The position numbers were made by a program, and so were the translations under genes. Below, one piece after another: positions 18,096-51,752 of a stretch of 64,000 nucleotides of DNA (position 1 is its first letter; each line of letters begins with the position of its first letter). Under the pieces are notes generated by a model. It was given only the letters and a program-made list of their open reading frames with translations. It had not been told where the DNA came from and did not search any database. Where the stretch lies: positions 1,180,501-1,244,500 of the forward strand of contig OZ020517.1 of assembly GCA_963971425.1 (NCBI GenBank). The letters are read 5' to 3'. The stretch is from Bryoerythrophyllum caledonicum. Its lineage: Eukaryota > Streptophyta > Bryopsida > Pottiales > Pottiaceae.

Positions 18096-20171
18096 ACGGT
18101 GACCCCACTCGAGCTATCCCCATGCGTGTGATGTTGGACTTTGGAGCTTAGCCAATGATTGCCAAGAAGCTAGCACAAGATTTGAGTCGAGGTGCTTCAG
18201 ACCTTGAGCTTGTCCGTTTATGATTGTCACATCGGCTGGGGGCACGAAGTAGGCCATACGATACACCCGACATTCATTGCAGTTGATGATCGGCGTGGTA
18301 TCTGGTCCAATTTTCTCACGTATCTATTTAGTGCGTTGTGACTCGTGCCACCAACTACGACATTTTGGTGGGTCAGCAGGTACTGTATCCACTCAATTTC
18401 TAGGTGAATAACAGGACGGCGGAGGCCTGGATTAGGCCTGGGTAGTTTGCTTGTGATGGAAGAAAGAAGCTAATCCCCATTATCTTCGCAGCTAGCAGGG
18501 TGACTTTGACAGCGGACGCTTTGTTTGGATGTAGTGCATTGGTATCCAATTTTCTATGAGGTTTGACGCTTTTAGAGGAGGCATATGCATTTATGTTGGG
18601 GGTAGCGGAATCAAGTGAGCTCTAACCAGTAGAGATCCTTGCACATCATTGCAAGGATCCACTTCCTCCATGGAGAACCTTGTTGGAGCTCATTCGTCGT
18701 AGTCGAGAGATTGTAGACGTTCTTGATGCTCCACAGCTCTCTGTAGACTCTTCCAATTCATTGTTGGCTTGTACTATTCAGTGGCAATCACCAAATGAAG
18801 GTATTATCCTCGTGGAGCTATTTGTCGGTATCGGTCTGGAGACTGGAACTTATGGCCGTGTTAGAGGCCGGGCTCAAGGTGCAGCAATACATCCACGTGG
18901 ATAGTGGGTTTGCAACCAACCGTGTCGCTCAACGTCACATTCAGCGTCTTCTAGCGTTGTACCCAGAGCAGTTACCGTCTTCTGGTATCCGGGGGTGTTT
19001 TGGAAGTTGCCACGTGATGTAACGTTGATCAATGAAGATTTGCGCCGATTGGGTCACGTGGACTCGGTGATTACCGGATGGCCTTGCTAAGGCCATTCAC
19101 GGGCAAGGAGAAAACGTGGCTTAGATGATCCATGGTTGGATTTCTTTGCAGATTTGCTCAGGCTCATCCAATGGTGTATTACCCACCAATAAACGCCACC
19201 AGGGTACATTTTTTAGAATGTACCCTCATTGGAGGACACTCAAAAAAGATATGTGTAGATAGTGTATACATCCATCATCTTTTTGTTTCTCCCACTTTTG
19301 TGGTTGCTGCCGCGTTGGGCATATACGCCTATCAACCCTTTGGATTTGGACCAACATGGCATCATCGGTGACGCTCACCTCTGCACTTGTTCAAGTGCAA
19401 CGACCGTGCAACGTGAGGTTGAAAACATCTTGAATGATCACCGTGTTTTCACAGAGGTCACCAAAGATGATGAGTCACCATTGGCCGTGGTGAATCGGGT
19501 TGGTTTCACTCGGGGGGCATTTTCCATGTTGATGTGCTACTTGGGGTCTTTTGCCTTTAGGACACGCGGTTCAACCATGGTTTGAGATTCTACTTCCGAA
19601 ACTTATACGGAGCCTTTGTTTGAGACGAGGGAGCTGCAAGCAGTGGGCTTTTTGACAGGCACAACCGTCGCACCAAATTTCTTTAAGGGCCACGGCCGTT
19701 ACTTGTTAGATCAAGCCATTGATCTCAACACTCTTATTTGGATTTGTGGCCTCTATTTTGTCGTCTAGCGTCGTTTGCAAGACCATCTACGCGTGCTCGA
19801 GGCAGACTCTGATGGTCAGGGGACAACGGTGCCACATCTCATAGAGATTAGAAAAGCGGAACTATTTTTTTGTTTGAAGCGGCACGCAGCTGAAAAGCTT
19901 CAAGCTTAGCATATCTTTGTAGCCTTGGCCGAGGACTTAGGTCAAGGGGATGCCTGAGATATCTTTTCTTGGTTTTACTATCACGACATGGTATTTTTTG
20001 TGGATCCCATGAGTGAGTAGTTTGGGGCCATGAATGCCATTTCTGCAACTAAGTAGCAATCACCGGCCATGCCAATACATAGTGAGTATTCTAAAGGTGG
20101 AGAAGGAGACCACGGAGTTTAATGACTGACCTTTGGATTTGAGGCCATATCTTATCAATGCCGAGGCACGG
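18096..20171 (+). pseudogene. Protease and cytosine-methyltransferase part of the old copy, decayed
   Basis: Collinear with residues about 700-1340 of the young copy. The protease site has become DFGA instead of DSGA. In the methyltransferase the PCQ catalytic loop at about 19083 is broken by CAA to TAA directly after the Cys codon. The conserved TAG CAA TCA between methyltransferase and pol is retained at 20052-20060. Interrupted after ACGG (20168-20171) by the 18.9-kb transposon. Confidence 0.85.
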
Positions 20172-20200
20172 AACACCATATTCGTTATAATGGGAGATTT
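20172..20200 (+). repeat. Left terminal inverted repeat of the 18.9-kb transposon
   Basis: 29 bp, beginning AACACCATATTCGTT and ending GGGAGATTT, immediately after ACGG. Confidence 0.95.
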
Positions 20201-20998
20201 CCATGATTTTGAAGATATATGATCTTTAAAGTATCAATATATATAGACAATTGTAGGTGCAAAGCATATCAACAATGCACCAAGAATACTATATTTCATT
20301 ACATGGATGGACCAAATTAGCCGAATGTCCCAAAAAATGGTAACGCTAAAAGAAGCATGTACCATTATTCCAAGCTTTATTTAAAACTTCATGAAAAAAA
20401 TCACAAACAACACTCATTCACCCCGAGGCAAAACACAATCGTCCTATCACTAATCAAATGGTCTACGGAGTTCCACCATAAGCTTCCATACGCGTCTTCA
20501 AAAAAGCCCTCTGACATTGCCTTGTCCATGTTGCGCCATTCTCTTGCATTAATGGACTCTCTAGAAGACGCTGCAAACCCCGCCTACGCACCTCGTCACT
20601 GTTTGATTTGGGCAGCGAGTGCCGGCGAGAGGGGGAAGGAGAGCATTTGCCTCTAGCAGCATCTCCTGACAAAGTTCGGGGACGGAGACATTTACCGAAT
20701 GGTTCCTGCACAATAGGCGCCACACACAATCCAAAGAAATACACTTTAGGTCGAATGCTGCTACACAACACACATGAAAATTTAATCATTGAGATCCATC
20801 CTAGTGCACATTAGGTCGGATGGAGCTAAAATGCAAAAGGAAAGATCCACAGAGCACATTTAACCCCAAACAAAAAAACAAGCTCAAATGAACCAAAACT
20901 ACATAAGTGCAAGCACATTTAACCCCAAACAAAAAAACAAGCTCAAATGAACCAAAACTACATAAGTGCAATGTAGCTCAACAACAAACCAAAATTGT
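20201..20998. other. Left subterminal region
   Basis: No convincing gene. It has overlapping short open frames on both strands at 20357-20814. A tandem duplication of about 59 bp (about 20852-20969) has unit AGCACATTTAACCCC to ATAAGTGCA, with the two copies essentially identical. Confidence 0.6.
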
Positions 20999-21397
20999 CT
21001 AGGCCAAAACATCGCAATAGTGCAATAAATTGGAGGTCATCATAACACGCACCGCAAGCGAGCGTTGGAAAGTACCATCCCTTAAATCGTCATAGAGAAT
21101 ACGCTTTGCTGGAGTACAATTATCCGGATTTAAAGGCGGGGACCCAGGAACTAAACGAGGCCACTGCGGCGAAGGCGAGTTGTTCCTATCATGAATTGGC
21201 TCCCGCGCAATAGGGCTTTCAACAACTCCGTCGTCCACTGCCATGGTCGAATAATCCATGGTTGATTGCACGGTTGCAGCAGAGTGCAACAAAAGCCCTT
21301 TACTCCGAAGAGAAAGGACGAACTCCTCTGGCCCTAGCAAGGAATCCACGGACGCCCGACAGTCACAGTCCTGTAGAAATTTCAACCACAGCGACAC
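20999..21397 (-). CDS. Unknown small open frame in the transposon
   Basis: 132 codons, ending CDVLA then stop. There is a possible splice acceptor (TTTCTACAG) inside the 5' part, so it may be a terminal exon. It contains a Ser/Pro-rich stretch (NNSPSPQWPRLVPGSPP). No domain recognised. It lies downstream of the large minus-strand gene, in the same orientation. Confidence 0.35.
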   Translation of the reverse strand: MSLWLKFLQDCDCRASVDSLLGPEEFVLSLRSKGLLLHSAATVQSTMDYSTMAVDDGVVESPIAREPIHDRNNSPSPQWPRLVPGSPPLNPDNCTPAKRILYDDLRDGTFQRSLAVRVMMTSNLLHYCDVLA

Positions 21398-22921
21398 TCA
21401 CATACCTTAGAACAATAGATGAAAATTCCAATCATTCAAAATAGCACGACATTCCATCAGCAGTAGATATCCAATTCCCACAACAAACAAAGCGGTGAAA
21501 CATCTCAGTTTCATTTATAAAAAAAATATACACAAAAAATGGTCCAACAAAATTTACAACATCGAGCTGCAGTCAATCGATACAGTTTAGCTCTATGCGA
21601 CCTAAAGTGTAAAAGGCATCTAAGTGTTCCCAACGGCATTAAGAGCGGAGATTCTGAAACGCTTGGATTGCGTTCCAGATACTTGCAGACTGACCACACG
21701 TCTTCTGATCATTATAAAACATCTCCCGGCCAGAGGGATGTTCGGCACGGTACTGCGCTAGACCACCCGGAAACTGATGAAGGTCAGAGAGATATGGCAG
21801 CAATTCCTCCAACAATACAAAGTCATCTCTCGCGCCAACATGTTTGTGCGACCATGATGGAAGAAGAAGGACGTTCTCCGGCAAATTGAGCATGTGCTTA
21901 ATCGGGCTGTCGTCAATGACAAGCGTATTTGCCGGAGTATACTCACGACCCAACCTATTGAAGAGATGGCTCGATAAGGTCTTCAAGAAGATGTCCTTCT
22001 GAGTGCCAGATTCCTTCATGTAGAATGTTCTGCTACCGACTCTACGCTCGGGAACCCTATCGCAATTCTCCTGACCAAAGATCCTAAGAGGGTACGAAGA
22101 ACTATGCTGAAAAAGATAATTACATATCTGACGCGTTGTAGATTCCATCATCGAACTTCAGATCGTGATGGTAGCAATCTTAGACAACTTCGTAAGGAAT
22201 TCAGCACAACCAGGGCGCACTCGAACTAGTTTAGGGCCTACTTCGGCCGGCAGCGAAGCCGAGTGAATGGACGGGATAGAGCCCATGGATCCTCTGGCCT
22301 GCCATGACGGCTCACACGTGCATAGAATCCCATTGAGGTCCAGCACAATGTTCAACCACCTGCCCTCGATATCTGAATGGACTCTAGGTATTTCTTCAAG
22401 ATTATTGGCATCATTTATTGATGCCTTGCCGACCTGGTTCGGAAACGCCAGGAGAACGACCAATATTATTACAGATTCATTAACAACGACGAATCAACAA
22501 TACGTAGAACGAAAGAGATAAATGGAGGGAGGAGTGATGGGGGAATGAGTGGAGTTCGAAAAGAGTTAGAAGAATACCTCGAGAACTTCATCGTCCTACA
22601 GCATTTCGTCTCGGGCACCCATCGATCCCAACGAACCCTGCATGCTGTCAAGGGGCCCGAAGTGCCCGACATCCATTTGGGGGCACGGTTCTGGGACAAG
22701 AAGAGGTGGCTCAGAATCATGATTGATCTCGTCTACGAGCACGGCTGAAACTTGGACGACCTCTTCTATGACTGGGACTGCAGTTTGAACGACCTCTTCT
22801 ATGACTGGTTGAGCAATCGCGTCATCACCGAAACTTAGATCTGGAAAAATTCAACAACTTCACGCTATCAGCGGATGGGCACAGAGGACACGGATACAAG
22901 TCACAGTGGTTAGATGTCAAG

Positions 22922-22948
22922 CAGTTTAGCTCGAGTCGAGCTGAAGTG
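22922..22948. repeat. Palindrome in intron 3 of the giant gene
   Basis: 27-bp near-palindrome (left arm CAGTTTAGCTCGA, right arm ending CTGAAGTG) inside the intron 22841-23050. Confidence 0.9.
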
Positions 22949-24039
22949 CTCGCCGTGCAGTGTAATATTAACAAAATAAATACTGGAGTACAAAATTGGA
23001 CATTTACAAAATGTTCTGCCTCTATACACTCGCAACTACGTTACACTAACCTGACGATGACCTGGGGACATCTGCGATAGATTCGTCCCGATCGGGCGAC
23101 TTCGGAGGGGAAGAGGGGCGGGCCGATGCGGAAGGGAGAACAGGAAGCAATTGAGCCCCACTGGAGACGGGGGAGGTACCCGACGGATATGGTAGCTGCA
23201 AATCAAGAGACGGACTCGTAGACCCGCTGTCCGGTGATGCGGAAGGCTGGGGGATTGCAGCAATAACTACGGGCGGTGCTGTGGCGGCAGTAGGCAAATT
23301 AGCCGACATGAACCTCTGCATCATGAGCATCATCTCGGCATGCCTCTGATCTTGGTCTCTCTTCATTTCATCGTCACGCCTCCGCTGCAGATCCCTGAGC
23401 TCCTCGTCGCGCTCCGCAAGCCGCTGCTCCATCAACCTCATCCAGGTGGCCTCCTCTTCGAGCTTCTTCTCAAGGGAGATCAACTTGCTGTCATCCTGAG
23501 CACTGCTCGCCATAGCCAACGGAGAGCGCGTGCTCGCGCTAGCAACCTTCCTCTTCTTGGCCGCCAGGCGAGCGATGGAAGCGCCCAAGGTGGGAGCTGA
23601 ATGAGGCCTGTCGGAAATCTCCAACGAGTCCAACTCCGGGAAGTCGAGTCGTTGTCGCGAGGATGCGATTGTGTCTCCTGCTTCAGATTGAGAGACACTC
23701 TGAAACTCAGGCGGAGTAGCGTCAACGAAGTCGTCCTGGGACTCATTATCCGGAGTGACGGTGCTCGAGATCGGGCACGCAACCACAGCGCTCGACTCCG
23801 CATCTTCCTCCTCATCGCCGAGGTCAATAATGGCTTTCCCCTTCCCCTTTCCAACGGCATCTCCAAACTCGGGGAAGATCTCCGAGTTGACGTGATACGC
23901 AGATATATCGAAATCGGCCCGATCCAACGTCAAGGCGACCTCGAAGGCGTCGTCGAGATCCTGCTCATCGGTGTCGTGAGAAATGCAGAATGCCTCCAGG
24001 TCCAGCATCTGAACACCAATGGATTGAACAAGATTCAAT

Positions 24040-24272
24040 TTAGGTCGAGTCGAGCTAAACTCACTACAAACAATTGCTGGTATGAAAACTCAACTATTAT
24101 AACTTCAAATCATACGAACGAAGTAAATGACATCCATAAAATCGTACAAGTAAAAGCCGACACTTTAGCTCGAGTCGAGCTAAAGTGACACCAAATGAGC
24201 ATAGGCAAGACCTCTTTGAAACTAAGAGGTCAGAAAGGGAATAAACAGTTTAGCTTGAGTTGAACTAAACTG
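24040..24272. repeat. Three palindromes in intron 2 of the giant gene
   Basis: Copies at 24040-24062 (TTTAGGTCGA / TCGAGCTAAA), 24161-24187 (perfect, arm CACTTTAGCTCGA) and 24246-24272 (arm CAGTTTAGCTTGA, with the matching change TTGAACTAAACTG in the right arm, one mismatch). All are in the 277-nt intron 24009-24285. Confidence 0.92.
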
Positions 24273-25728
24273 TAGGGATGCTTACCACACTCGCTGTCAG
24301 TAATTTCGTCCCGCCAAATAGCTGGACAACAGAATCCCCCCTCTTGTAGAACAGCTCCAGGACCTTGATGAAGAACTCCATCCTCAGCTCGTTCAAATTC
24401 ATGGAGTACGCCAACTCGTTGTACTTGCACAGCTTCGTGTACAACACATGCTCTGGAGCTGCGTAGATCTTCTTTACGGCCGATATCACCGTAAGCTCCT
24501 TCTTGAAGAGAAAGAGGAGCCGAACCGGGTCTAGAGCGTTGTTGGTCTTCGGCGCGAATCCTCCGAGGCGCTCGTTCTCGGAAGGAAGATACTTCGACTG
24601 CAGCACATCGTATGCATGGCACAATGACGGGCCCTCAGCAAACGCTGTCACTTGAAGGTGTGACTGCTCGTTGCCGCAAATGAAGAGCCAGGCTGGAAGA
24701 TCGGTGAGGAGAGGCTGCCCTTTCGATGCGAACATCGTCATGAACTCGTCGAAGAAGGGCCTCTCCAACGATGACGATGACGTCCCAGAGAACCCAGGGA
24801 TGTTCCGGAAGTCGATGATGCCGAGCTTCAAATTGCAGCCCAAGTTGCGCCACGAATCCGAAGGCCACGTCCCGAGCGAATTCGTTGCCGCCTTGTAAGA
24901 ACGGAAGTGCAGCGCTCCCATTGGTGAAACAAACCGCGACCGCACATCGATGAAGACTCTGAAGAACTCCTTCGCGTACGGAGAGAGATCTTCACATTTG
25001 CAGTTGCGAAACTGCGTCTGCCTCAAGTTGGCGTAGTACGAATCCGGTGGACCCCAATCCAAGAGGGCACGCTTGGAGGCCTTGCTGACGTTGTAGTTCT
25101 TCTTGAACGTCCGCCAGTTTGAACGTTTGTATGCTCCAGTGCTGTTGAAGAAGGCCAGCTCCGGCCTGATCAGTTGAAGCTCCATCCGAGCGACCTCCTT
25201 CCTCTTCCTCCGATCCACCCAGTCCCGGGCTGTATAGCAATCCTCCAGCGCAGAATTTGGCAGCTTGATGACCACCTTCGGGTAGGGCAGTTTCCGAGAT
25301 GGCCCTGATCGATTGAGAATGTGCTTGCACATTTTCGCGTGATCGACTTCGGTCATGTTGCCGAGAAACTTGAAGAATTCGCGCGTCAGAACCCCATCCT
25401 TCTCAGGAACCCAAGACTTCGCGTCCTTGAACTTTGCCAAGGGCGTCGAAGTTGAATCGACGTTGATGAGACGCCATGCACCGCAGAAGAGATGACATCG
25501 GACCAGAGCTCGAAGGTTTCATTTGTCGCGGTGATGATCTTCACCTCGTTCGTAATTGAAAGCTCCTTTGCCTTCCCGGCTTTCTTGAGCGCCGCCTGGC
25601 TCTTCGCAACGTCGATCATTGCGAAGCGCTCACGAACCGCGTTAAGAAATGGCTGCGCAGAACATAAAAGGGTCGTTTGAGTATACAATAAAGCAGGAAT
25701 ATAAACATGTCCAATAGGGTCCACATAC

Positions 25729-25854
25729 TGCAAGTTAGCTCGAGTCGAGCTAACTTGCAACCCATGAGCAGACAATGACGACTTCTTAACTATACATATG
25801 ACTGTACAGATACAGAGCGCATTTGCACTTTAGCTCGAGTCGAGCTAAAGTGCA
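25729..25854. repeat. Two perfect palindromes in intron 1 of the giant gene
   Basis: A perfect 31-mer at 25729-25759 with arm TGCAAGTTAGCTCGA and a perfect 31-mer at 25824-25854 with arm TGCACTTTAGCTCGA, both in the intron 25653-25877. The outer arm bases differ between the two, but each is self-complementary. Confidence 0.95.
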
Positions 25855-27499
25855 TGACCTTGGTTATGATATATTACCTCAAACTTCTTGTCATTTGCAA
25901 TCTCCGCTACCGTTCTCCGACCTGACTTGTGAGACCCGCGAACGCCTGTGGCGGAGTGCTTCGGCATTGGTCTCCCAGCTTGGATCCACAAAGCACGGGA
26001 GCCGAGGATATTTGTTGCCCACGTTGGCTTGAATTGGACCAAATGATTCACACGATTATAATACGCGGAAATCTTCCTCAGCTTCTTCGGATCTTGCGTC
26101 CAGACAATGTAACATTGCCATGTTCGGAAGTGCCTTCTCATCACCTCCGGAACGTTGCCCTTAATCATCTCCTTCGAGGCAGCAACGCTGTGCTGGCCGT
26201 TGATGATGTAGAAGTCGCAGTCGTTGAGCTCCTCCATAGTCGTCGGCATAGTGTCGAGCTTCGGCATGACGTAGAGAGTCTGCTTCTGCGTCTTGTCTGG
26301 CATTTGGAGGTAGTAATGCTTCAACTCCTCCATGCCCCGAGGCTCAAACGCACGGATCGTCCACTCCGGCGGTGCATTATGCAACCTCATCACGTCAAGC
26401 TCAATCTTCATCTCTCTGTCGCCTTTGAAAAAGCAGCTCTGACACTCCGTCCAGAATTTCTGGTAAATCTGTTGGACGTTGTTGTAATCGATTGTCTCTC
26501 CGTATCCGAGCGCCTTGGGGAGCTCCGAGAGTGCAGAGGCCATCGAATTGGCTAGCTCCTCCTCCGATACGAGCTTCGACTACTTTCTTGAAGAGGTCTC
26601 CGGCTTCTTGGCAGCTGACCGCTTCTTGACGAGGGAAGCAGACAGCGTGTTGCGCAGAGTGCTTTGACTTGTTCTCGCACCTGGAGTTCTAACCGGTACC
26701 GACGCTTGACTCATGTCCTGGCTACCGGTCACGGCCCCCGAAACCGTTGAAAGTTCTATCGGGCGTCTTGCCGCGATATTCTTCGCCTTATCTAGAGCGG
26801 CAAAGGTACTCATTCTAGAGAGAATGACGCGCAGTTTATTAGCTATAGCCTTTGCTTTCAGCGGCTGTCCGCTACTAGTCTCCCATTTCTTAAGGGAGAT
26901 CTCATGCTCGACCTGAGTCACTATTTCCTCAAATTTGGAAGACCTAAGAGAATCGACCAAATCCAAGATACAGAAGGGAGATGAACTATTGTTTACTATA
27001 ATAGTAAAGAAATACGGATCTAAGGACTCAGTGGTCGTCTCACACGACAACTTAACGTGATCGTTATCTTCGTGGACTACATCAGTAACTTTGGTCTTGA
27101 AGTCGATGTGTTGGGGATCGACGATAGCACCAGCGAAGGTCTGACCAAACACTAAATGATCGGTATAGGTCGCCCACAGAAGCGTCCACTTCAGTGTCAT
27201 CGATAGGTCCTTCAGCTCCCAGCAATCCAAGTGGTTGTTGTCGTCTCCATCGTCATCGTCAACGTCGACAGGCTTTGGCTGGAAGAAGTGCTACAGCTTT
27301 GACACCATCCTGTCCCTCTCAGATGTGCACAAACACGAAACAGAGAAAAGATATTAGATTGCTCTATTGATCATCCGATTAGGACGGCGAGGTCACACAT
27401 TAGCTCGACTCGAGCTAAAGTGTACCGATATTCAAGTATGTGAGTAATACTCTAAAACAAAATTTAGTCATTTAGAACGTTCTCTTAGACGCTTACAAT

Positions 27500-27662
27500 C
27501 AACTCATGCCTACTTCTCGTTCAACTCTCAGAAATGTGGGAGAGCTTCAGTTCCCCCTTAAATCACTCACGAACCTCACTCTTTGAGGTTCTCAAGTGGT
27601 TGAAGCGGGACTGAAGCTCTTGCACGATTTATGAGAGGTGAACGGAAAGTAGACGTGAGTTG
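27500..27662. ncRNA. Long foldback, pre-miRNA-like (copy 1)
   Basis: The segment folds on itself. It begins CAACTCATGCCTACTTC and ends AGTAGACGTGAGTTG, and inner blocks such as GAGCTTCAGT / ACTGAAGCTC and AACCTCA / TGAGGTT also pair. Arms are about 75 nt with scattered mismatches and a short loop, the size range of plant miRNA precursors. The ACTGAAGCTC core only loosely recalls the miR159/319 family. Whether it is transcribed is unknown; a small MITE-like hairpin is the alternative. Confidence 0.5.
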
Positions 27663-27824
27663 AGTTAGGAGACTGCAATTACACCAATAAATCAATGATG
27701 TATTCAAGTTTTAGCTGCACCTTTAGCTCGACTCGAGCTAAAGTGCTCATGCATGGAGTGCATAGGTGAACAGTTCTGACACTTACAGTATTCATTCAAA
27801 CGACTTTCCTATACATTTTTATTC

Positions 27825-27984
27825 AAATCATGGCTACTTCTCGTTCAACTCTCAGAACTGCGAAAGAGCTTCAGTTCCGCTCTAATCACTCACGAACCTC
27901 ACTCTTTGAGGTTCTCAAGTGGCTGAAGCGAGACTGAAGCTCTTGCACACATGTGAAAATATAACGAGAAGTTGACATGAGTTG
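27825..27984. ncRNA. Long foldback, pre-miRNA-like (copy 2)
   Basis: Related to the foldback at 27500-27662, sharing CTACTTCTCGTTCAACTCTC, GAGCTTCAGTTCC and the loop region ACCTCACTCTTTGAGGTT. The arms have diverged but still pair along most of the length. Confidence 0.5.
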
Positions 27985-28216
27985 GGTCGTCGGTATCATT
28001 GGTTTACTATACTTTTGGACTGTTTAAAGTTTGAATGTTGTTGTGTTTGAGTTGTTCTTTATGTTTATTGTCTCACACTTTAGCTCGATTCGAGGTAAAG
28101 TATGTTGGCTTTACAGAGAGGTTATGACATATTTCAAACCCAGTCTTTGAGAGTTTATATTAAGATTACATTTCCAGGAGTCGCTTTTATGTCAACCGAA
28201 GACGTACTCAGTCATA

Positions 28217-28612
28217 AATTTTAGCTGGAGTCAAGCTATTACGTGACCTTGATAGTGTATTATAGTCCACACTTTAGCTCCAGTCGAGCTAAAGTGAGAC
28301 TTTTGTGTGCACATTTGGCCCACTTACGCTCGAGTTGCACCAAAGTACGCTTTCGTGTTTGCTTCATTGATCACACTTTACCTCGAGCCGAGTTAAAGTG
28401 TGGCCAGATGTGCACTGAAAAGGTCCACTTTAGCTCGACTCGAGCTAAAGTGTGGCCAAAGGTTCACAGAAAAGGCCCACTTTAGCTCGACTCGAGCTAA
28501 AGTGTGGATATTAGTGCACAGTGGAGGCACACTTTAGCTCGAGTCGAGCTAAAGTGTGGACAATAGTGCAATATGGATTTCCCACATTAGCTCGACTCGA
28601 GCTAAACTGTGT
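28217..28612. repeat. Palindrome array with 52-bp period (left array)
   Basis: Palindromes with arm CACTTTAGCTCGA are centred at about 28230, 28283, 28334, 28387, 28439, 28491, 28543 and 28596. Successive distances are 53, 51, 53, 52, 52, 52 and 53. The first four are degenerate, the others near perfect. The spacers (for example GTGTGGCCAGATGTGCAC) are partly alike, so the array grew as direct tandem repeats. Confidence 0.93.
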
Positions 28613-29530
28613 TCAATGAATAGCGTATTCATCGCAGATTGTACAGATTCGTCATTCGTTATATGATACTGAAGGCGTAGGGTTTAGGGCTCCTGGGTGA
28701 GAGTATGGATTTTACCTTTCAGCCATTGCTTATGAACCTTAATCCCAGACAAATTCTGCTGGAACTAGACTTCCTGCAACAACAATTACAAACCCACACA
28801 CAAAATCAATCAAAGTAGCACATGGAAACCAAAACATTGAAATCTTTCACATTGAAATCAACACTTTGAAATGGGCACATTGAAATTAAGCACTTTGAAA
28901 TAAACACATTGAATTCAGCACATTGAAACAATGACATTGAAACCAACACATTCAAACTAGCAGAAAGTAGCACATTTACACCAGCACAAACCAGCACATT
29001 TAAACTAGCACAACAAATATCCACAAACCACCACAAAACCACCACATTCAAATCACCACATTCAAATCATCACATTCAAACCAGCACATTGAAACCAATA
29101 CACACTCTCATCTACGTGGTGACACATACATCAAAAGCAATGCTACACATATATTATGTTTCAACACATCATATCAAAAGCAAAACTACACAAATATCAA
29201 AAGAAATGCAAGACTGAACGAGTGCACTTACCTTTAAAACTGAGAAATCCGACTGGAAAAGCTGGAAGTCTTGTTACTTGTTCACGTCAATCCTCCACGC
29301 ACGGCCGTTTCAGACTCTACGTGCTCACAGAAACTCACAGCAACTCACACACACTCACAGAAATTCACACACGCTCACAGAAACTCACACACACTCACAG
29401 AAATGCACACACACTCACAGAAACTCACACAAACTCACACACGCTCACAGAAACTCACACACCCTCGCAGAAACTCACACAAACTCACAGAAACTCTCAC
29501 AAATCTCACACAATCTCACGCAAACATCCC
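28613..29530. repeat. CACATTGAAA-rich and CTCACAGAAA-rich simple repeats
   Basis: About 28838-29105 is made of short degenerate repeats of CACATTGAAA / CACATTCAAA. About 29320-29520 is a minisatellite-like run of ACTCACAGAA and ACACACTC. The open frames across it are products of the repeat. No gene recognised. Confidence 0.8.
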
Positions 29531-30533
29531 TAAACTCTGGCGCTACAGTGTACACAAAGTCACACAACAACAACAAATCGCACGTCCTACAAACCCTATG
29601 CGCAGGAAACCCTAGACTCCAGAAATTGCATGCGGAACCTATACACAGCGCTACAATGTAAAAACATAACAATCCCTGTAGATAACGAAACTAACACAAA
29701 CTAACGCATCAACTCACAAAACTCACATAACATCAACGCCTGGAAGTACACGGAAAACCTGGACTGCAACGAAAAGACTAGAAAAATGGCTCGCGCCACG
29801 ACTTCGTGGGGAAGTTTCTAGGCCACCTAAAGCCGTGAGGGTCGAAACCCTGTGGCCGTTTGGTGGTCCCGAGATACCCTCGGGATACCCTTCGCGATAT
29901 TGGGGTGTAACTCCCGGGTATTATGTCGGATGCTCCACAAATCCTAAACCTTCGTTACTGATACCCGGACTTTTAAGAAGCCAATTTAATTTTACTAGAA
30001 TAAGTTCAAGATATTACGCGCCTGTAGTATTTGTGTACTCGTAAATTTCCAACACATTTTTCCGGAGCCATTAACACTACAATTTTGCATATTTTGGGGC
30101 AACGAACACGTACCAAAAGGAAAATGATTATTTCCAATTTCATTCGTATGATCTCAATTAAAACTTCTAAATTGACATTTTCTCAATAATACACAAACTT
30201 AAATTGGACGAAAGTGAATGCTTATAGTATTTAGTGTTTAGTTTTCTTTCATGGTTTTAGTGGATCAGCTGGCTTTCACTTCACTCGATTTCAATTTTTG
30301 CATTACACAAGGAGTAAATTCATTACCATCGATATATATAAGTTCCTCCTACACCAATTATTAGGTGAAGCACACTTAAGAGAGTTTTAAAGCTACGATT
30401 TTAAGATTCTATTACTTTGAATTCAAGTTTTGCTTTTTTATGAGTTTGATATTATTTTCTATGACAATCGAACAAACAATAAGTATGTTAAGACCACATC
30501 TTGCAATTGTATAATTAAAAAATAAATGCCGGT
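29531..30533. other. Non-coding stretch of the transposon
   Basis: Contains a GC-rich patch near 29810-29960 with GATACCC motifs and then AT-rich sequence. Nothing recognised. Confidence 0.4.
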
Positions 30534-30635
30534 GCACACTTTAGCTCTAATGGAGCTAAAGTGTGCGTATTTGCTTTATAGTTCCCTACATTTACTGATG
30601 GTGTACACTTTAGCTCTAATAGACCTAAATTGTGA
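30534..30635. repeat. Two palindromes of the TCTAATGGAG class
   Basis: One at about 30534-30566 has arm GCACACTTTAGCTC and core TAATG. A second, weaker one is at 30604-30633. The core differs from the CTCGA class while the outer arm is kept. Confidence 0.85.
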
Positions 30636-33600
30636 ATTTTTTCTGTACTTTTCACTTCATTTTGCTTTTACTGTAACGGTACAAATATAGTTGTTAGAGC
30701 ATCTCCACCCCTGACGGAGAATTTTCCACGCCAGCGGGAAGGTGCTCAAGTTTGAGATGAAGTGGGGGGGGGTCACCCTTTTCCCCCCGCACCGTCCCCG
30801 AATTGGCCACTGTGAGGGAACACCAGCGCCCAGCACTAACGCCATAGTAGGCTAATTTTTTGGAAGGTTTTTATTGATTTCTTTTAATTCCCTCGTGTAA
30901 TTTCATGCTTGAACACATGCTCTCGCGGACTTTTGGTGTCCCCTGTACTTTTTGTAAATTTACTATTTAGAGGAACCGGCGCCGCCACTCCAGTGGGCCG
31001 GGACACCGGCCTAGGCCTCACGGAGTCGGCTTTACCGTGTTTATTCTTGCATTCCGGTCACTCGGCCCCGGTGGAGATTATCTTTTTCTAGTACACTATT
31101 TGTCAACAAGTTGGCAACTATTTTTAGCCACCATTGTCCTGAATATTATCCCTCATTCGTTCACCTACTACAGTTCATTTCGTAATAGCCCTCTATCAAA
31201 ACTCTTCCCTAGCACACAATTTTGATACTTGATAAATAGTATAAGCTCAAAGTCTTCAGCCTACCGGTCGCCATGCATTTATTCTTCGTCTCATCTTCAA
31301 CCTCAATTTCTTATCCTCTTATCCACAACTATTCTCATTCCCATCTCTTGCATTTTCTTTACATTATTTAATATTATCTAATGAATATTTAATGTGTAAT
31401 CAAATATTTAGCCAATAACTAATGACTTTGTAATGATTTTTTAGAGGATAATTCATGTATATTGGTATATCTGTAACTTTTATGCACAATTAAAGAATAT
31501 TGGAATTTTATTTATTGAATGTTGGAAGTTTTAAAAGTATATTTATGATAGTTTATTAATATTTATATATTTCATGATTATTTAAAGAGTATTAAATGCA
31601 CTGTTAATGAATAGTTTATGAATAGTGCATAAATTTCTAATGTAAAATTAATGTGTATTTGAATATTTAATGAGTATTTAATTAATATTTACTGAATATG
31701 TAATGCACATTGAATGCGTATTATGTGATGGATATCTAATGAGTATTTTACTTGTATTCCTATATTTATTGTATGTTTAAGTTTTTTCCTTTTCCAATAT
31801 TCTTTTTTTTTCTCATTTTCGTTTCCAGAAGAATGTTCTTATATTTCCAGTCTTCTACTTGTAGTTTCATTTTCCCTCCATATTTTACATTCTACTTTGT
31901 CCAATTTTTTATATTTTCCTTTTGCTCCATACCTACGTCCGCTTATTCCCAAGCTCTTTCTTGCAAATTCTTCCTTTTCTACATGCACTCAACCCTTCTT
32001 TACTATGATGCTCAAGATGTAATCAAATCATGATTAAGGTTCCCTACAGTAATTGTCCACAAGTAAAAAACTTTATGTTCTACTATTTACTAGGATTGAC
32101 ATTTAGTGTAGTAGTTGGCATTTAGTGTAATATAGTTTTGTCACTACAATTATTGTAAATTTTACAATTACTGTGTGCATTCCTATTTAGTTTCCACTTC
32201 TCTAGAAGCCATCTTCTGTATACTGGAGCTACATAGTGCATTTTTGCTTTCTAATCCACTCCATTTAGTGATGGTGCACAATTTAGCTCTAGTAGAGCTA
32301 ATCTGTGCATATTATCTTTTTAGTTCACTGCACCTAGTGATGAGGCACACGTTAGCACGAGTGGAGCTAAAGTGTGTGCACACACTCCTTTTAGTTCATT
32401 GCATGTAGTGATGGTGCACACCTCTGCTAAAAACCGATCTGATGTATGTGCAATGTGTATTTCCACTTCTACAAACAATCATTTTGAACTCCGTACTTCT
32501 CTTTATGGATAAGTATTTCACAAGTGGAATAGTAATCTTTTGAATTTTAAAAGGATTTTCACAATGTGTGGATCTAAATCTCTAATAGTAATATTAAAAA
32601 ACAAAAAAATATGACGATCCCCTAATTTTTAGTGGATATGAAGTCTAAGTATTCTTGGTACCCTAAATCAATAATATGTGACAATGTGAAAAATAGATGA
32701 ATGAATATGTAATCTTATTTTCCACTAGAAAAATAACATATTTTTTCACAATATCATTTGTTCTAATATTACTTCTATGTATTGAAAATACCACATTCCA
32801 TACTGTGTCATAGCGTAAGGTTTTTTAGGTTGCTCGATGTGCCGGCAATCGAGAAGTTTCTCTTTTGGCTCGCATAACTTTTAATGAAGACGTTCATTGA
32901 GAAAATAAATTACTTATAAATATGCCTCTCATTGAGAAAATACATTACTTGTAAATATGCCTCATTACTTTTATCATCCTTTTACAAAATTTTGAGAATT
33001 TAAAATATAATTTGCGACCACTAGAACGTGCTCAAAAACTAATTATTCCATTTTTGCATGTATAAATAAATTCAAAATTACTTACATTACGAACATTAAA
33101 TTATGCCTGATGCACTAAGTGATACACTTTGTATTAGTTATATTTTATATTTTGATTATCCTTTTTTTGTCATGAGGAGGTCTCTCCGTTTCTTATTTAA
33201 ATCTTTTAATATTGTTCCACTCTCTATGTTTTACAAATGACAAAGTCTTCAATTTCACGTCTAAACATGAAATAAATTGTATATGGTCAAGAAATCTTCC
33301 ATCTTTTATGTCATGCTTAGATTGCCACACCCTAAAGTCATGAAAATACAATGTGAACTCAAGAATAAGATATTTTAATTGAAATATTAGTTTGCGCACA
33401 TTTCAAGTCTTTGAGTACCTCTAAGTGGAAAGTAACCAATTTCAATTGCAAATCCAGACCATGGGGACATTGGGATTCTTGCCAAAGAATGCACATTCTA
33501 AATTGATGATGAAATAGTTACATGACGCACATTTTTATAACCCCAAAGAAATGATGTCCAAAGCATGTTTGAATACATTTGTTTTGGCTAAAAATACACG

Positions 33601-33837
33601 TGTACATATAATATGTTTTTTTGTTTTTTTATATGCTACTCGTCTCTTAAGGTCTTTGATTTCAACATAATAGATAAGTCCTATTTGGATTGTAATAAAA
33701 ACTATTTCTAATCATCTCAATATCTTCTCTACATTTCCCTATACCTTAGTTGAATTGTCAATATCATGAATCTTCAAAGTATTATTATATTGAAATAAAT
33801 TGACATCAGAAGATATCACCTAAACCAAGGATCCTCA
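30636..33837. other. AT-rich non-coding stretch of the transposon
   Basis: About 3.2 kb with no supported gene. Two palindromes of the TCTAGTAGAG / CGAGTGGAG class are at about 32275-32309 and 32343-32377. A GC-rich patch is near 30965-31070. The rest is AT-rich without recognised repeats. Confidence 0.5.
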
Positions 33838-33962
33838 ACCGTGAACCCTAAACCTGAACCTAAATTCCAAACCCTGAACCCGAAACTCCAAACCCTAAAC
33901 CCGAAACTCCAAACCTTAAACCCTAACCCTAAACCCTAAACCTAAACCTATCCAAAACCCTG
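33838..33962. repeat. Degenerate telomere-like CCCTAAA tract
   Basis: Runs of CCCTAAAC and variants such as AACCCGAAACTCC and CCCTAACCCTAAACC over about 125 bp. This is the plant telomere heptamer in interstitial position, inside the 18.9-kb transposon. Confidence 0.8.
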
Positions 33963-34561
33963 AGCGTTACCCTAAAACCGTGTATATAACTCGCATGTGC
34001 GAGTATATTCGAGGTATTGACCTTTCCTTATTTTAGTCAACCGGGAAATAGTTGATTCAGTTTCCTGCTAAGATTTCGAATTTGCACTTTTTAGGGGCTG
34101 TGAAAAAGTCCCCCCCGCCAATTCTGAAACGTTCGTGTGTCCGTGAGTGACCTCGCCGATACTCGAAAACTTTCTTCATTTGTTTCCTTCTCGCTTTGGT
34201 TGTTGTGCAAGGTTGTTGTGGAGAGGCTTGGAGGTAGTACGACTGTCGGAGCTTGAAGAGGGCAACACCTATAGGTTGCGCACGGTTGAGCAAGTGAGGC
34301 AACAACGTACCGGTTGTCTTCTTCATAAGGTACACAATGTATACTTCTTGCATTCTCCGTGCACAGTCTCTAGCAATTATGATGTGACAGTGTGTAGGAT
34401 TATTGCGCTGGTTCCAGCTGCTACTGTGATTTTGAAGCATCAGTGAGAGTTTCTTGACGACTAACGGAAAGATTTGGGTTGTAGTATACAAAGAGTCAGA
34501 TTCATAGGCGGAAGAGTTTCCCCATACGAATCCCGACAAAGGCGCCGAGAATCACGGAAGG
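33963..34561. other. Stretch before the right palindrome array
   Basis: Overlapping open frames occur on both strands: minus 34539-34057 (160 codons) and plus 34147-34446 (99 codons). Neither shows a recognisable domain, and I cannot choose between them. Confidence 0.35.
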
Positions 34562-34916
34562 ACAGTTTAGCTCGACTCGAGCTAAACTGTCTTACGTTCT
34601 TTCAAAGGACAGTTTAGCTCGACTCGAGCTAAACTGTCGATCAATATCATTATTGTCAGTTTAGCTCGAGTCGAGCTAAACTGTCCTTCGATCAAAGGTA
34701 AGACAGTTTAGCTCGAGTCGAGCTAAACTGTCGATTCAATATTGTAGGACAGTGCAGCTCGTATGTAGCTAAACTGTCCTACTATAATGTTTCGACCCTT
34801 TAGCTCGACTCGAGCTAAACTATCTTACCTTCTTTCGAAGGACAGTTTATCTCGACTCGAGCTAAACTGATCTACCTTATTTTCTATGTCTTTTTAACTC
34901 GACTCGGGATAAAATT
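34562..34916. repeat. Palindrome array with 47-bp period (right array)
   Basis: Palindromes with arm CAGTTTAGCTCGA are centred at 34576, 34623, 34670, 34717, about 34763, 34809, 34856 and 34903. Successive distances are 47, 47, 47, 46, 46, 47 and 47. The fifth and last are degenerate; most others are perfect. The spacers are about 20 bp and mostly unlike each other, yet the distance is constant. A very degenerate ninth copy may lie near 34950. One isolated copy is centred at about 35058. The array lies 0.3-0.7 kb before the transposase start codon. Confidence 0.93.
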
Positions 34917-35227
34917 ACATTGCGTCTTATAGTCATTAAATCAGGTCGGATCGGGCCAAATTGTCACTATCGAGGGTGAGATTATTTCATATTCGGATTA
35001 AAACTAATCGCATTAAATTTTCTACTTGTCATATAATACCGCATCAGTTTACCTCGAGTCGAGCTAAATTTGCCTGTTCTTTAATGTCAATTCACTTGTA
35101 TCAAATGTATTTTCAAGCGCCAGACTTTACCTCTTCATATGCTTCTTCATTGATGTCTATTCCTACAAGGTATTCACCTATTCTTATTTGGCAGGGTTAT
35201 TTAATATTTACCTCATTGGAATGCACA

Positions 35228-38060
35228 ATGTCGTCTTCGGAGGACGACGATGTTCATGTTGACGCTCTCGTGAACCCTGACCTTCCTGAGTTTGATGTTA
35301 TTCCTCGCCGTCTCTGGGTCGGGATGACTGTTTCGCTTCACAATGGTTCGGGTGTTTGCATTGCAGAGGGGTTGGTTCGCAATGTCCGGTCCAGTGCAAT
35401 TCTAGGTTCCTCTGGTCCTCTTGGGGATTCGAATGTTGTAGTACAAGTGTCCAGTACTTTTGTTCTGGAGGAAGCTCCTGATGAGTGGAGGTACTCGTTT
35501 AAGTCCTGGCCTATTCAACAAGTCTTCTTAAACGGTGTGAGTCTCTTCCATCATTGCCTTAGGGATGTTTACAATGTCTGGTTGGTTGAGCGTAACAGAC
35601 CTCTAGGTGGGAGCTCCCGTTCTTACGACAATTCCTCAAGGAATACACGTCCAACAGTGTCCAGGAATGCTGAATTTCTCATGACCCCTCTTTCCATTAA
35701 CGCAGTTGCGAGCAATAGTTGTTGCAGTGAGAACTGTGTACAACACTATCCTAGAGATAAAATAAAAGTCCTTCGGATGCGCTTGTACTGTGAGACCATT
35801 GTGCAGTTTAGAAATCATATCAAACTCGACGTTCATAGACAGTTTCATAGAAACTCTTCGGGTAGGAAGGTTGTGACCCTAGAGGGTGTGGACATTTGTG
35901 CCCATGCTTGGATGAAAATCATGGGTGTTAGTTCGAGTACTTTCTATCGGAATGCGAAGGACGCTACCGCTGGTCATGCGGCTCAACACCATGGGAATAC
36001 CGGTTTGCGTAAGCCTAGAGGTCATATGGTTGTGGCTACTGCCGCTCTTGGAGCCATTCTCGATAGACATGCGGACCACATGCCTCACAAGTCCCGTGTT
36101 CTCCCATCTGGTGAGAAGGCTGTGGCAAAGGTCCTTCCTGCAAGTTTTAAGTGGAAGGATCAGATAGCGCTTCTTGATGATCATCTTGCTGATTGTGGAT
36201 TGCCGCCAATCTCAATCTCAAGCTTGAGTAAGATTCGGCGAGTGAGCTTTCCTGAGTACTATGCCAAGAGAGGTGGAGACAACTTCGCCCGTTGTTCTAC
36301 GTGTGACAAATACCAGGATCAGAAGAAGCTTACTCAACCTGGAACACAAGCATCGCTGCTATGGCAAAAGAAGATGCAGGTTCACATCGATTCTGCCTTC
36401 TCACATCGGGACTTGTACTACCTGAACCGATTTCGATCAAAGTCGTCGCCCCAGGAGGTTCTTACCATCATGCATGATAAGATGGATCACTCAAAGACTG
36501 CGTCCCCGGTTTTTTCACATAAAACAAAGCACTTAGATGGGCTTATGAAGTTGCCTCTTGCAATCACAGGCATGCTTGCCCATGGTCATGTGGACCAACG
36601 TTACGCCCATTACGGCCTTGATTTATACTCCCATGATGCCAATTACACGGTTGGGTCGTTCGCAAAACTATTGCGTGACTTGGAGGCGCCTCCGAAGTCA
36701 TCGTCCCGGCAACTCTTTCCTGAATCTTGCTCTCAATCTATTGTATGCGGCCGTGTTACGGGGTGCAGAGATGTGTTTGGATCCATTAGGGCAGATTCCT
36801 GATATCCCAGTTCCTGGGAGGCCTTTGCCACCAATATTGAACGTGCAAATGGACAATGCTGTTGGTGATAACAAAAATAGATTTGTTTTCTGTTTTTGGT
36901 CTCTTCTTGTTGCAAAACGCATCTTCCGCGAGGTATATGTTAATTTTATGCTAGTTGGTCATACACATGATGATATAGATGCATTATTTGGACGTTGGAG
37001 TATGACACTGAGGAAGGAGAGTTTTCCAACCATTCCTTTGCTCATGAGGTCGTTCATGAAAAATGAGAGTGTTCCCACAATCCCGCATCTCCTTCAAGAG
37101 GTTCCTGACTTTAAGAAGTTCATTGGGGATATGATTGCGGACGGTGATGAAGCTTTGCAGGGTCATACGAAGGCTCATCAGTTCAAGTTTTATGTGGACT
37201 CAAGTGGTTGTCCGGTAATGAAGTATAAAATCCTTTGCCATGATGAGGATTGGCTTCCTAAGGGAGGAAAAGGTAGTGGCATCAAATTGTGGAAGGAGGA
37301 TTCTGAAGGGAGGTCTTTATGGCCTCGCGGAGAACCTAATGCATTGAAGCCTTCTACGATGCGGCATCTCCATGAAGTGGTGAAGGGACTTTCAGGATTC
37401 ATCAATCACTGGGAGCAATCATCGTGGGAGTCTGTTGAAGCCCGTTCGCGTTTTGAGCCGCTATCGTATTATTGGCGAGATGTTAGAGATGCTCTGACAC
37501 TTCCAATGGATACACCGATATCATTGGAAGACGGCTTTTGGCCAACGACGCGAATTGCCCATGCCATTGAAGATGAGTTCTCAGCGGAGGGTGAGGTTCG
37601 CGAGGAGTACCGTGAAGATGAGCATTTTGTTGGCCAGAGACGCGATCGTCCACCTCCTTCTTTTAGAGTTGGCCGTGATCTTTTTGCTGGCTATTTTGTT
37701 GCATTGCGGCCTTGTGATGGGGACGAGCGCCCATTTTGGATTGCTCAAGCGGTTTCAGATCCTAATTCTAATCCGGATATGCCAAACACCGTGCGTATCC
37801 AATTCTACCGCCCTATATCGCGCGATCGGGATGTTGTGAAGTTCTACAAAGATTGGGATATTGATAACAACCTTTGTTGGACAATTGAAAAGGGGATAGC
37901 CATAACGTGGGAGAGTACCGATTCAATCTTGACAGCATGGAAACCTAGGTCTTCAAAGAGGGATGGAGGTCATATGCAAGAATCAACTACAAAAATTCCG
38001 AAGGGGCAAGTAGCGATTATCAAGGCCTCTTTGGAAGCACTTGCCAGGTCCGAATCGTAG
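35228..38060 (+). CDS. DDE-type transposase, DUF7869-like, of the 18.9-kb transposon
   Basis: Starts at ATG 35228 (MSSSEDDDVHVDALVNPDL). An upstream ATG at 34961 would read through palindrome sequence and is less likely. Residues near 355 have a CSTC-D-KYQDQKK zinc-like motif. Then come HDKMDHSKTASP (first acidic residue near 420), LNVQMDNAVGDNKNR (second) and VGHTHDDIDALFGRWS (third), in the order I know from DUF7869 proteins and consistent with an RNase H-fold DDE/D transposase. The reading frame changes near 36.7 kb. A 124-nt intron (36697-36820) would join the frames as LEAPPK-PLPPILNVQMDN in phase and give 902 residues. Its donor GTCATC is weak, so a 1-nt frameshift is the alternative. 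No other break is visible. Confidence 0.72.
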
Positions 38061-39011
38061 TGGACTTAGATCAATGGACTTTTCTTTTCCTAGATTTTAG
38101 ATTCTGATGCGTAATACTTCATGTAGTATGGTTAGATCCATTGTTGCTGAGATTGTAGACATTTGTATTTGTTTACACTCTGTATGACTATTATATGTGA
38201 TGCCAATGATTGCTATGAAATATTCTCTCCATTATTTTTGCGTATCGGTGATAATTTGCAGTATGTTTTATTTTCTTTTTAAAATAACAATATGATAAAT
38301 TGCTTCTAATCTTGAAACCAATAATACCAGTAATTGCCTTCATGGTGAATGATAGAAAGTATATGTTGAGTCGCACTTTAGCTCTAGTGGAGCTAAAGTG
38401 TGAGCAAATCTTCTTATTTAGTTCATTGTACTTAGTAATGGTGCGACTTTAGGTCTAGTGGAGCTAAAGTGTGTGGAATTGCCTTTTTGAGTTCATTGCA
38501 CCTCTAAGTGATGGGGACACTTTAGTTCGAAGAGAGGTAGTGTGTATGCAATTTTTTTCCCACTTCTGAGCACCATCATTTGAAACTCGTTATATATTTT
38601 TAGCCAATGTGTATTCCACAAGGAGAATTGAAATTCTTTTAAATAAAAAAAGGCTCATCAAAATGTGTTTAGCTAATTCTCTTACAAGTGGATATTTGTC
38701 CGTCATTTAGCTCACTTTTAGCTAAATTGGAGCATGGTGTCAATCCGGGTTAATAGGATCGAGTGTGAATATGTAGCTATTCATATTCAATGAACACATG
38801 TGGTATAAAAGAAGTGTCGACTAATGTGTTCTTCTTTTCAATATTATAGTTAGATTCGTAATGCAATGTTATCCGTAGTACTTATTTTTATAGGGGTTTT
38901 TGTAGAAAACATTACCTCCCAATTTAATGGAAACTCATATCCCTCCATATTGTAGAAATTAGATGTGCACTTTAGCTCTTATGATCTACATGTGTTAATT
39001 TGGGAGTTGCT
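38061..39011. other. Right subterminal region
   Basis: AT-rich with no gene. It holds palindromes of the CTCTAGTGGAG class at about 38370-38403 (arm GCACTTTAGCTC) and 38445-38473, a degenerate one at about 38515-38545, and a half-site near 38965. This core class is also found at 30.5-32.4 kb but not in the two regular arrays. Confidence 0.75.
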
Positions 39012-39040
39012 AAATCTCCCAATATAACGAATATGGTGTT
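39012..39040 (-). repeat. Right terminal inverted repeat of the 18.9-kb transposon
   Basis: Inverse of 20172-20200, ending AACGAATATGGTGTT, directly followed by ACGG. Confidence 0.95.
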
Positions 39041-39044
39041 ACGG

Positions 39045-51393: not shown

Positions 51394-51752
51394 TGTCACG
51401 GGACGTGGCGTCGAGGGTCTCTCCGTATCGTAGATTTTAGCGTAGATTAGTTTGTTACTAATCTACGTGTGTTTAGGGACGAACGGCGGCGCACCGTTTT
51501 CATCCGTGGATGATTCTCATCCACTTAGGGTTGTATGCGTGTGCGTATAGCGCCGCACACGTCCTTGACTTGACGTCTTTGTCAAGTCAAGCTTTGTGAG
51601 TGAGGTTAGAGAGTGATTAGTGAGTTCTTTGCTTGTAAAGTGATGGTTTATCATTAGTGAAAGCTTCGCATTCTCTACTTTAGTTGCACTCGTTGATTCT
51701 TCCCTTGTGGAGTGCGTGTCGCTTGACTTCTTGTGGAAAACACATGTGATTC
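51394..51752 (+). repeat. A1 terminal repeat of the young copy
   Basis: 359 bp, TGTCACGGGACG to CACATGTGATTC. It contains three perfect hairpins: stem CGTAGATTAG at about 51445, CGTGTGCG at about 51538 and TTGACTTGAC at about 51565. It is not followed by the B block that follows A2. Confidence 0.95.

Follow-up and report, generated by a model that had tools for sequence, protein, structure and literature searches.

A 64,000-nucleotide stretch of contig OZ020517.1 from the moss Bryoerythrophyllum caledonicum (assembly GCA_963971425.1, positions 1,180,501 to 1,244,500), referred to here as the window, contains a DNA transposon that carries a DUF7869 transposase gene, a second long gene (gene 2) and a set of repeated palindromes. 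We read it as a Sola-type transposon in which the product of gene 2, or a complex that includes it, would recognise the element's own palindromes and counter silencing, much as VANC proteins do for the VANDAL elements of Arabidopsis. We give this reading a probability of about 0.5. The two genes are linked in two lineages within the same genome, and the type of palindrome tracks the lineage of gene 2, not the host. A further-reaching proposal, which we hold tentatively and at somewhat less than even odds, is that sequence-addressed self-protection arose independently in moss Sola-like elements, with protein and palindrome co-diverging into two address systems in one genome, both served by almost identical TIRs. 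The unfamiliar part of the element is gene 2 together with its matched palindromes; catalysis, the binding partner and the anti-silencing role are what we infer.

Ends, target site and copies of the element

The transposon occupies positions 20172-39040 of the window. Its 29-bp terminal inverted repeats (TIRs), located by end comparison and genome search at 20172-20200 (plus strand) and 39012-39040 (minus strand), have the sequence AACACCATATTCGTTATA[A/T]TGGGAGATTT, with 28 of 29 bases the same at the two ends. Both ends are flanked by ACGG, as read from the sequence (20168-20171 and 39041-39044), which constitutes a 4-bp target-site duplication (TSD). With at most one mismatch allowed, the 437-Mb genome contains 1,199 such TIR ends compared to none for a reversed control, so the match is not due to chance. 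An earlier note on this DNA had given the same exact boundary, TIR and duplication. Of the 1,199 ends, 100 were listed, all of them exact matches on contig C1. Among these listed matches, 13 of 31 inward-facing (+,-) neighbours are 16-20 kb apart, versus 0.25 expected by chance. One of these 13 pairs consists of two left-type ends and hence does not represent a single element. Short deletion derivatives, below 16 kb, were not found among the same 31 neighbours. The window element is confirmed as a genuine DNA transposon of the cut-and-paste type, and its ends are exact.

Exact 4-bp TSDs accompany 16 of 18 paired copies: the window element itself (1/1), 13 of 15 pairs that orientation and spacing singled out among the 100 listed ends, one further pair (1/1) and an element of the second lineage (1/1). 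The duplicated sequences are varied and AT-rich. One of the two misses is the pair of left-type ends, which is not one element, and the other lacks a repeat. At C1:13680992-13697132 (L015/L016), left-type ends face each other at a distance of 16.1 kb and show no TSD.

The target of the insertion was a gypsy-like sequence. The flanks of the element, once joined, align gaplessly with a related copy of this gypsy-like sequence near 57.3 kb in the window, which presents a paralogous unoccupied site at 57324-57327. This ungapped alignment is better evidence than the restored gypsy reading frame to which the earlier note appealed. That claim is weak, as the reading frame across the joined flanks stays open for just 44-45 codons, does so in more than one frame and lies in degenerate sequence.

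Transposase and superfamily of the element

The transposase gene (35228-38060, plus strand), frameshifted in the window copy, matches Pfam DUF7869 (PF25273) with an E-value of 8.2e-37 and 127.1 bits, the Pfam cut-off being 26. In total, 248 relatives were found, and among the 120 listed, the named ones come from Ceratodon purpureus and Physcomitrium patens. All 60 relatives taken into an alignment match PF25273, and none of the 60 matches any Pfam transposase family besides DUF7869. Five aspartates (D220, D223, D345, D385 and D387 in the numbering of P0001) are invariant in the 48, 50, 59, 60 and 60 rows of this alignment that cover them, and they form three clusters, within HDKMDH, QMDN and GHTHDDID. 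This DUF7869 transposase probably has a DDD active site, with a putative catalytic role for these residues, whose invariance is what a DDD transposase should show. In viral contigs, 58 matches to a pattern derived from the transposase alignment included no relative.

The Sola superfamily is said to go back to Bao et al. in 2009. CACTA elements have a 3-bp TSD and CACTA ends. Like the window element, CACTA (En/Spm) elements are large, occur in plants and contain internal motifs in repeated copies; they differ in TSD and ends, and no CACTA transposase domain was found in the 60 aligned relatives of the window transposase. According to the accessible parts of the published descriptions, Sola elements have a DDD transposase, a 4-bp TSD and TIRs of variable length, some exceed 15 kb, and they are present in the moss Physcomitrella; gene 2 or palindromes are without mention in those parts (PMC10741241, PMC9033089). 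The published superfamily description, as far as available, gives TSDs of 7-12 bp for MULE and TA for Tc1. Varied 4-bp TSDs and the lack of any corresponding Pfam transposase in the 60 relatives do not fit CACTA, hAT, PIF/Harbinger, MULE, Tc1/mariner or piggyBac. With Sola, the window element has in common the 4-bp TSD (16 of 18 pairs), the TIRs (29 bp, at 1,199 genomic ends), a DDD-like aspartate pattern, a length above 15 kb and the moss host.

By features, Sola is the best superfamily fit, compared by description and not by sequence. The earlier note had correctly recognised a DUF7869 transposase gene, a gene of about 1,600 codons and a repeated palindrome system inside the element, and had judged that the combination matches no known superfamily. 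This last judgement is doubtful, as the testable features agree with the published Sola descriptions. That DUF7869 elements form a superfamily separate from Sola seems to us somewhat unlikely: although all 60 relatives are without a match to a named Pfam transposase family and no mention of DUF7869 was found in the literature searched, agreement with Sola, as described in the accessible parts of those publications, extends to the TIR and its 4-bp duplication, the DDD-like pattern, the size and the occurrence of relatives in mosses.

Structure, relatives and selection of gene 2

Gene 2 comprises five exons on the minus strand and about 1,600 codons. Its exon borders, read by eye, are GT-AG with compatible phases. 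Exon 1 (25878-27308) contains the conserved motifs INGQHSVAAS and YNRVNH, and exon 2 (24286-25652) is conserved without a Pfam match; both are supported by the relatives found. Exon 3 (23051-24008) is the least conserved part and is followed by exon 4 (22578-22840), both with splice sites placed by eye. Exon 5 (21639-22433), whose splice site was also placed by eye, carries a NIF/FCP1-like phosphatase domain and the stop codon. In the window copy, stops and frameshifts break gene 2 as well as the transposase gene. Exon 5 matches Pfam NIF with 5.3e-06 as an open piece and with 7.7e-18 when read through one stop.

Exon 1 has 54 relatives, found by scoring the 8,000 candidates that had most words in common with the query. 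The corresponding search with full-length gene 2 (7,996 candidates, residues 1-1000 scored) gave 15 Ceratodon models of 1,291-1,587 amino acids, which are 43-48% identical and cover 44-100% of these residues; a precomputed NIF domain is present in nine of them. Gene 2 was also detected at 37-45% identity in two contigs, L063 and L064, binned as a Synechococcales metagenome-assembled genome. Because gene 2 is split there as by introns, these contigs are probably plant contamination in a cyanobacterial bin. L064 holds exons 1 and 2. The order of exons is kept in L063 (exons 1, 2 and 5) and in L074 (1, 2, 3 and 5), the gene-2 half of the second-lineage element described below. Active NIF phosphatases have DxDG at the first motif. 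The window copy, L063 and 7 of the 15 Ceratodon models read DLNG at this place (the other eight fall outside the pattern used), so NIF catalysis may be impaired in the gene 2 product. Of the 15 Ceratodon relatives, 11 bear gene tags of the U or V sex chromosome; the system may thus have a bearing on the growth of sex chromosomes.

Both gene 2 and the transposase are under purifying selection. In comparison with the more distant copy, exons 1-2 of gene 2 have a ratio of nonsynonymous to synonymous divergence (Ka/Ks) of 0.16-0.22 and exons 3-5 one of 0.36-0.44, while the transposase gives 0.26-0.31. In parts of both genes, substitutions are biased toward one codon position. Between the window element and the copy L061/L062, Ks amounts to 0.35-0.38 in exons 1-3 of gene 2 and 0.15-0.18 in the transposase, next to a noncoding divergence of 0.08-0.12. 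This contrast suggests that element copies are mosaics.

A ParB/sulfiredoxin-like reading of INGQHS is weak and serves as a lead only: TIGR03187 (DGQHR) at 0.0085 and DUF6551 at 0.063 were each matched by one of 13 members, and DUF6551 reappeared in a later scan only for P0164, which was the earlier match. Sequence searches of the PDB gave no match in one case and best E-values of 1.7 and 0.2 in others, none of which is meaningful.

Palindromes of the window element

The element contains 33 palindromes of about 31 bp with at most five mismatches to the core, following the plan N2-CA-N-TTTAGCTCGA-S-TCGAGCTAAA-N-TG-N2. All 33 are noncoding, whereas coding sequence makes up 40.5% of the element. 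With the sites grouped into 16 clusters, the chance of such a placement is 2e-4, in a test that used exon edges a few bases off the final ones. Six palindromes reside in introns 1-3 of gene 2: two in intron 1 (25729-25854, centres 25744 and 25839), three in intron 2 (24034-24274, centres 24049, 24174 and 24259) and one in intron 3 (22920-22950, centre 22935). Ten lie 5' of gene 2, seven as a cluster at 28214-28611, of which the last five are spaced 52-53 bp, and three more at 27394-28104 (centres 27409, 27732 and 28089). Another eight are located 5' of the transposase gene, with an array of seven at 34559-34920 spaced 47 bp (once 92) and a single one before the transposase start at 35043-35073. 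The middle region holds four less perfect copies in two pairs 69 bp apart (30535-32376). The remaining five, toward the ends, are degenerate: two between the left end and gene 2 (20805-21611, centres 20820 and 21596) and three near the right end (38372-38731).

The exact 21-mer of the palindrome occurs 3,562 times in the genome and its reversed control not at all. Among the matches listed, 60 distinct sites fall into eight clusters and three singles, and the TIR is present in four of six genomic intervals placed from such clusters. The palindrome can also be recognised in proteins, as 12 of the 54 exon-1 relatives have gene models that run into intron 1 and spell it out, compared to 0.015 per shuffled set (177 proteins). 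A wider look raised the number of exon-1 relatives spelling the palindrome to 20, five of them identified by eye. Viral contigs contained no copy of the palindrome.

A second lineage with a second palindrome type

An element of a second lineage resides in the same genome at C1:15569639-15592434, with the TSD ATTT and TIRs showing 1-2 mismatches. It displays the same arrangement, with a transposase 60-65% identical and a gene 2 27-48% identical to those of the window (27% in exon 3), in a reading that covers the element on both sides of its 7.5-kb middle (C1:15576501-15583999). The upstream palindrome array is spaced 52 bp here too. Of the L074 palindromes, 10 are upstream of gene 2 and one is 3' of it; the others follow directly on exons 1 and 2 or fall between exons 3 and 5. 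Exon-matched stretches hold none of the 17 palindromes in L074 and none of the 16 in L063/L064, the exons in this test being tblastn-matched stretches entered by hand and not full exons.

The two lineages differ in the inner part of the motif. At inner position 8, 32 of the 33 window palindromes have T.A (T-type). In L063/L064 this position is changed on both arms, from TTTAG..CTAAA to T[T/A]CAG..CTGA[A/T], with C.G (C-type) in all 16 sites of up to three mismatches; two sites beyond this limit had 5 and 6 mismatches, and the one with 6 (L064 3189) falls within exon 2. The 26 palindromes found in the second lineage comprise 17 that are C-type on both arms, eight mixed and one T-type, and those with at most one mismatch (n = 18) comprise 15 C-type and three mixed. 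A C-type 19-mer has 783 sites in the host genome and none for its control. A third type, guessed from the tails of P0167, P0168, P0171, P0172 and P0175, has three genomic sites and is unsupported here; the guessed motif serves as a specificity control.

In a tree of 30 gene-2 exon-1 sequences (15 T, 7 C and 8 unlabelled), exactly one change divides T from C. The C clade, with support of 100/98, includes the host genome's own C-type element. The labels derive from peptides that extend into intron 1, assigned by a pattern for 15 of them and by eye for five (P0139, P0146, P0150, P0152 and P0154), together with the window and L074. It is in this sense that palindrome type follows gene 2 and not the host.

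Proposed mechanism and alternatives

In the mechanism that we propose, the DUF7869 transposase would act on the 29-bp TIRs and insert the element with a 4-bp duplication. The gene 2 protein, or a complex with it, would recognise the palindromes in promoter regions and introns and in this way preserve the activity of the element. Most likely it would do so by opposing silencing by the host, as VANC does in VANDAL.

VANDAL elements are MULEs. The closest parallel in working is, by analogy, the VANC system of VANDAL21/Hiun in Arabidopsis (PMC5735166, PMC10398659). As far as the accessible parts of these papers go, VANC21 binds a 9-bp motif that occurs in tandem arrays within introns and upstream, different motifs belong to a related VANC, and the transposase of VANDAL is better conserved (PMC5735166). 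Shared with the moss element are a non-transposase gene, element-specific motifs in introns, upstream of the transposase and in arrays, a difference in motif between related proteins, and a better conserved transposase. The noncoding motif arrays found here differ with the protein lineage as well, which is a likeness of working and not of family. VANC contains DUF1985/DUF287, whereas gene 2 has no Pfam match to either, so a VANC-like role would be convergent. In addition, the VANC21 motif is 9 bp long compared to about 31 bp for the palindromes, and binding and demethylation, known for VANC, are putative for gene 2. Fungal DNA transposons with a TET/JBP dioxygenase likewise carry a gene that may counter silencing; the accessible part of their description (PMC12730594) contains no palindrome system, and no TET/JBP domain was found in the window element. 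Among titles on Sola in mosses, transposable elements of Ceratodon and palindromic anti-silencing, none describes the present system, the last two fields being represented in small part.

Several observations weigh against the proposed mechanism. Besides the missing VANC domains, no DNA-binding domain in gene 2 reaches its curated cut-off in Pfam and TIGR scans; HTH_Tnp_Tc3_2 stands at an E-value of 0.039 and 14.7 bits, with a cut-off of 31.5. TIGR03187 (DGQHR) is matched by none of eight further proteins, five of which are rescans. Compared with the near copy, Ka/Ks is 0.91 for exon 4 and 0.74 for the second part of the transposase, both from few changes, and the window copy displays a modest excess of C-to-T changes at CpG (3.0% vs 1.7%). 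The T-to-C change in the second lineage is incomplete, given its mixed sites and its single T-type site. With only one change between T and C on the tree, the co-divergence goes back to a single event that many descendants share. Since the transposases differ too, the T/C split does not point to one protein rather than the other as the reader of the motif. Furthermore, arm positions 11, 14 and 15, which were selected from the same data, vary yet stay complementary (67 of 99 vs 35.2 expected over all window sites); with one site per cluster the count is 30 of 48 vs 15.7, and none of 20,000 shuffles is as high. Positions 16-18 pair at chance. A plain dimer site accounts less well than a fold-back structure for variable arms that stay complementary.

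The palindromes might instead be internal binding sites for the transposase, or for gene 2 as an accessory transposition factor, in the service of transposition or autoregulation. The subterminal repeats of CACTA elements have such roles. The grouping of palindromes in element-like clusters, the eight copies 5' of the transposase gene and the difference in palindrome type between lineages whose transposases are only 60-65% identical would agree with this. We nevertheless regard it as unlikely: the window's five sites between a gene and an end, on both sides, are degenerate, the majority of the other sites belong to the introns of gene 2 and to upstream regions, and the TIRs of the two lineages are nearly alike while their palindromes are not.

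The complementarity kept at positions 11, 14 and 15 speaks for another alternative, in which the palindromes form RNA hairpins in introns and 5' transcript regions, acting in splicing or as small RNA with no DNA-binding protein involved. The presence of sites in introns 1 and 2 of gene 2 in at least three elements points in the same direction. However, the inner motif is near-fixed in the window lineage, which hairpins alone would not need, and the 52-bp upstream spacing in both lineages suggests phasing on duplex DNA. Complementarity is also weaker in L063/L064 (e.g., 0.56 vs 0.54 expected at position 14), and overall we consider RNA hairpins quite improbable. That gene 2 is captured host cargo and the palindromes passive fold-back or tandem-duplication repeats is highly improbable, as gene 2 is retained under purifying selection in distant lineages and in Ceratodon and the palindromes keep to the same positions behind exons 1 and 2 and track gene-2 type, even though NIF is a host-type domain, the palindromes do form tandem arrays and fold-back copying could yield complementary variable arms.

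In the literature surveyed, VANC is the single plant case of a transposon-encoded, sequence-specific protein directed against the silencing of its own element. If the self-protection reading is true, VANC-style anti-silencing would have originated a second time, here using palindromes where VANC uses short direct motifs. Such an unrelated system, having two natural gene-motif pairs within the same genome, would open the contest of transposons and silencing to tests in mosses and might provide sequence-addressed epigenome tools.

Other features of the window

An Rfam scan of the element at the gathering threshold gave no match. The gypsy-like relative that holds the unoccupied site is located at 52-62 kb of the window. 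In the open reading frame of the neighbouring gypsy-like element (53158-57129), a domain of the C-5 cytosine DNA methylase type (PF00145, 3.7e-10) is accompanied by a weak match to an aspartyl protease, and there is a PHD finger at 50770-51450. Within the transposon, degenerate CCCTAAA repeats resembling plant telomeres are located at 33833-33948.

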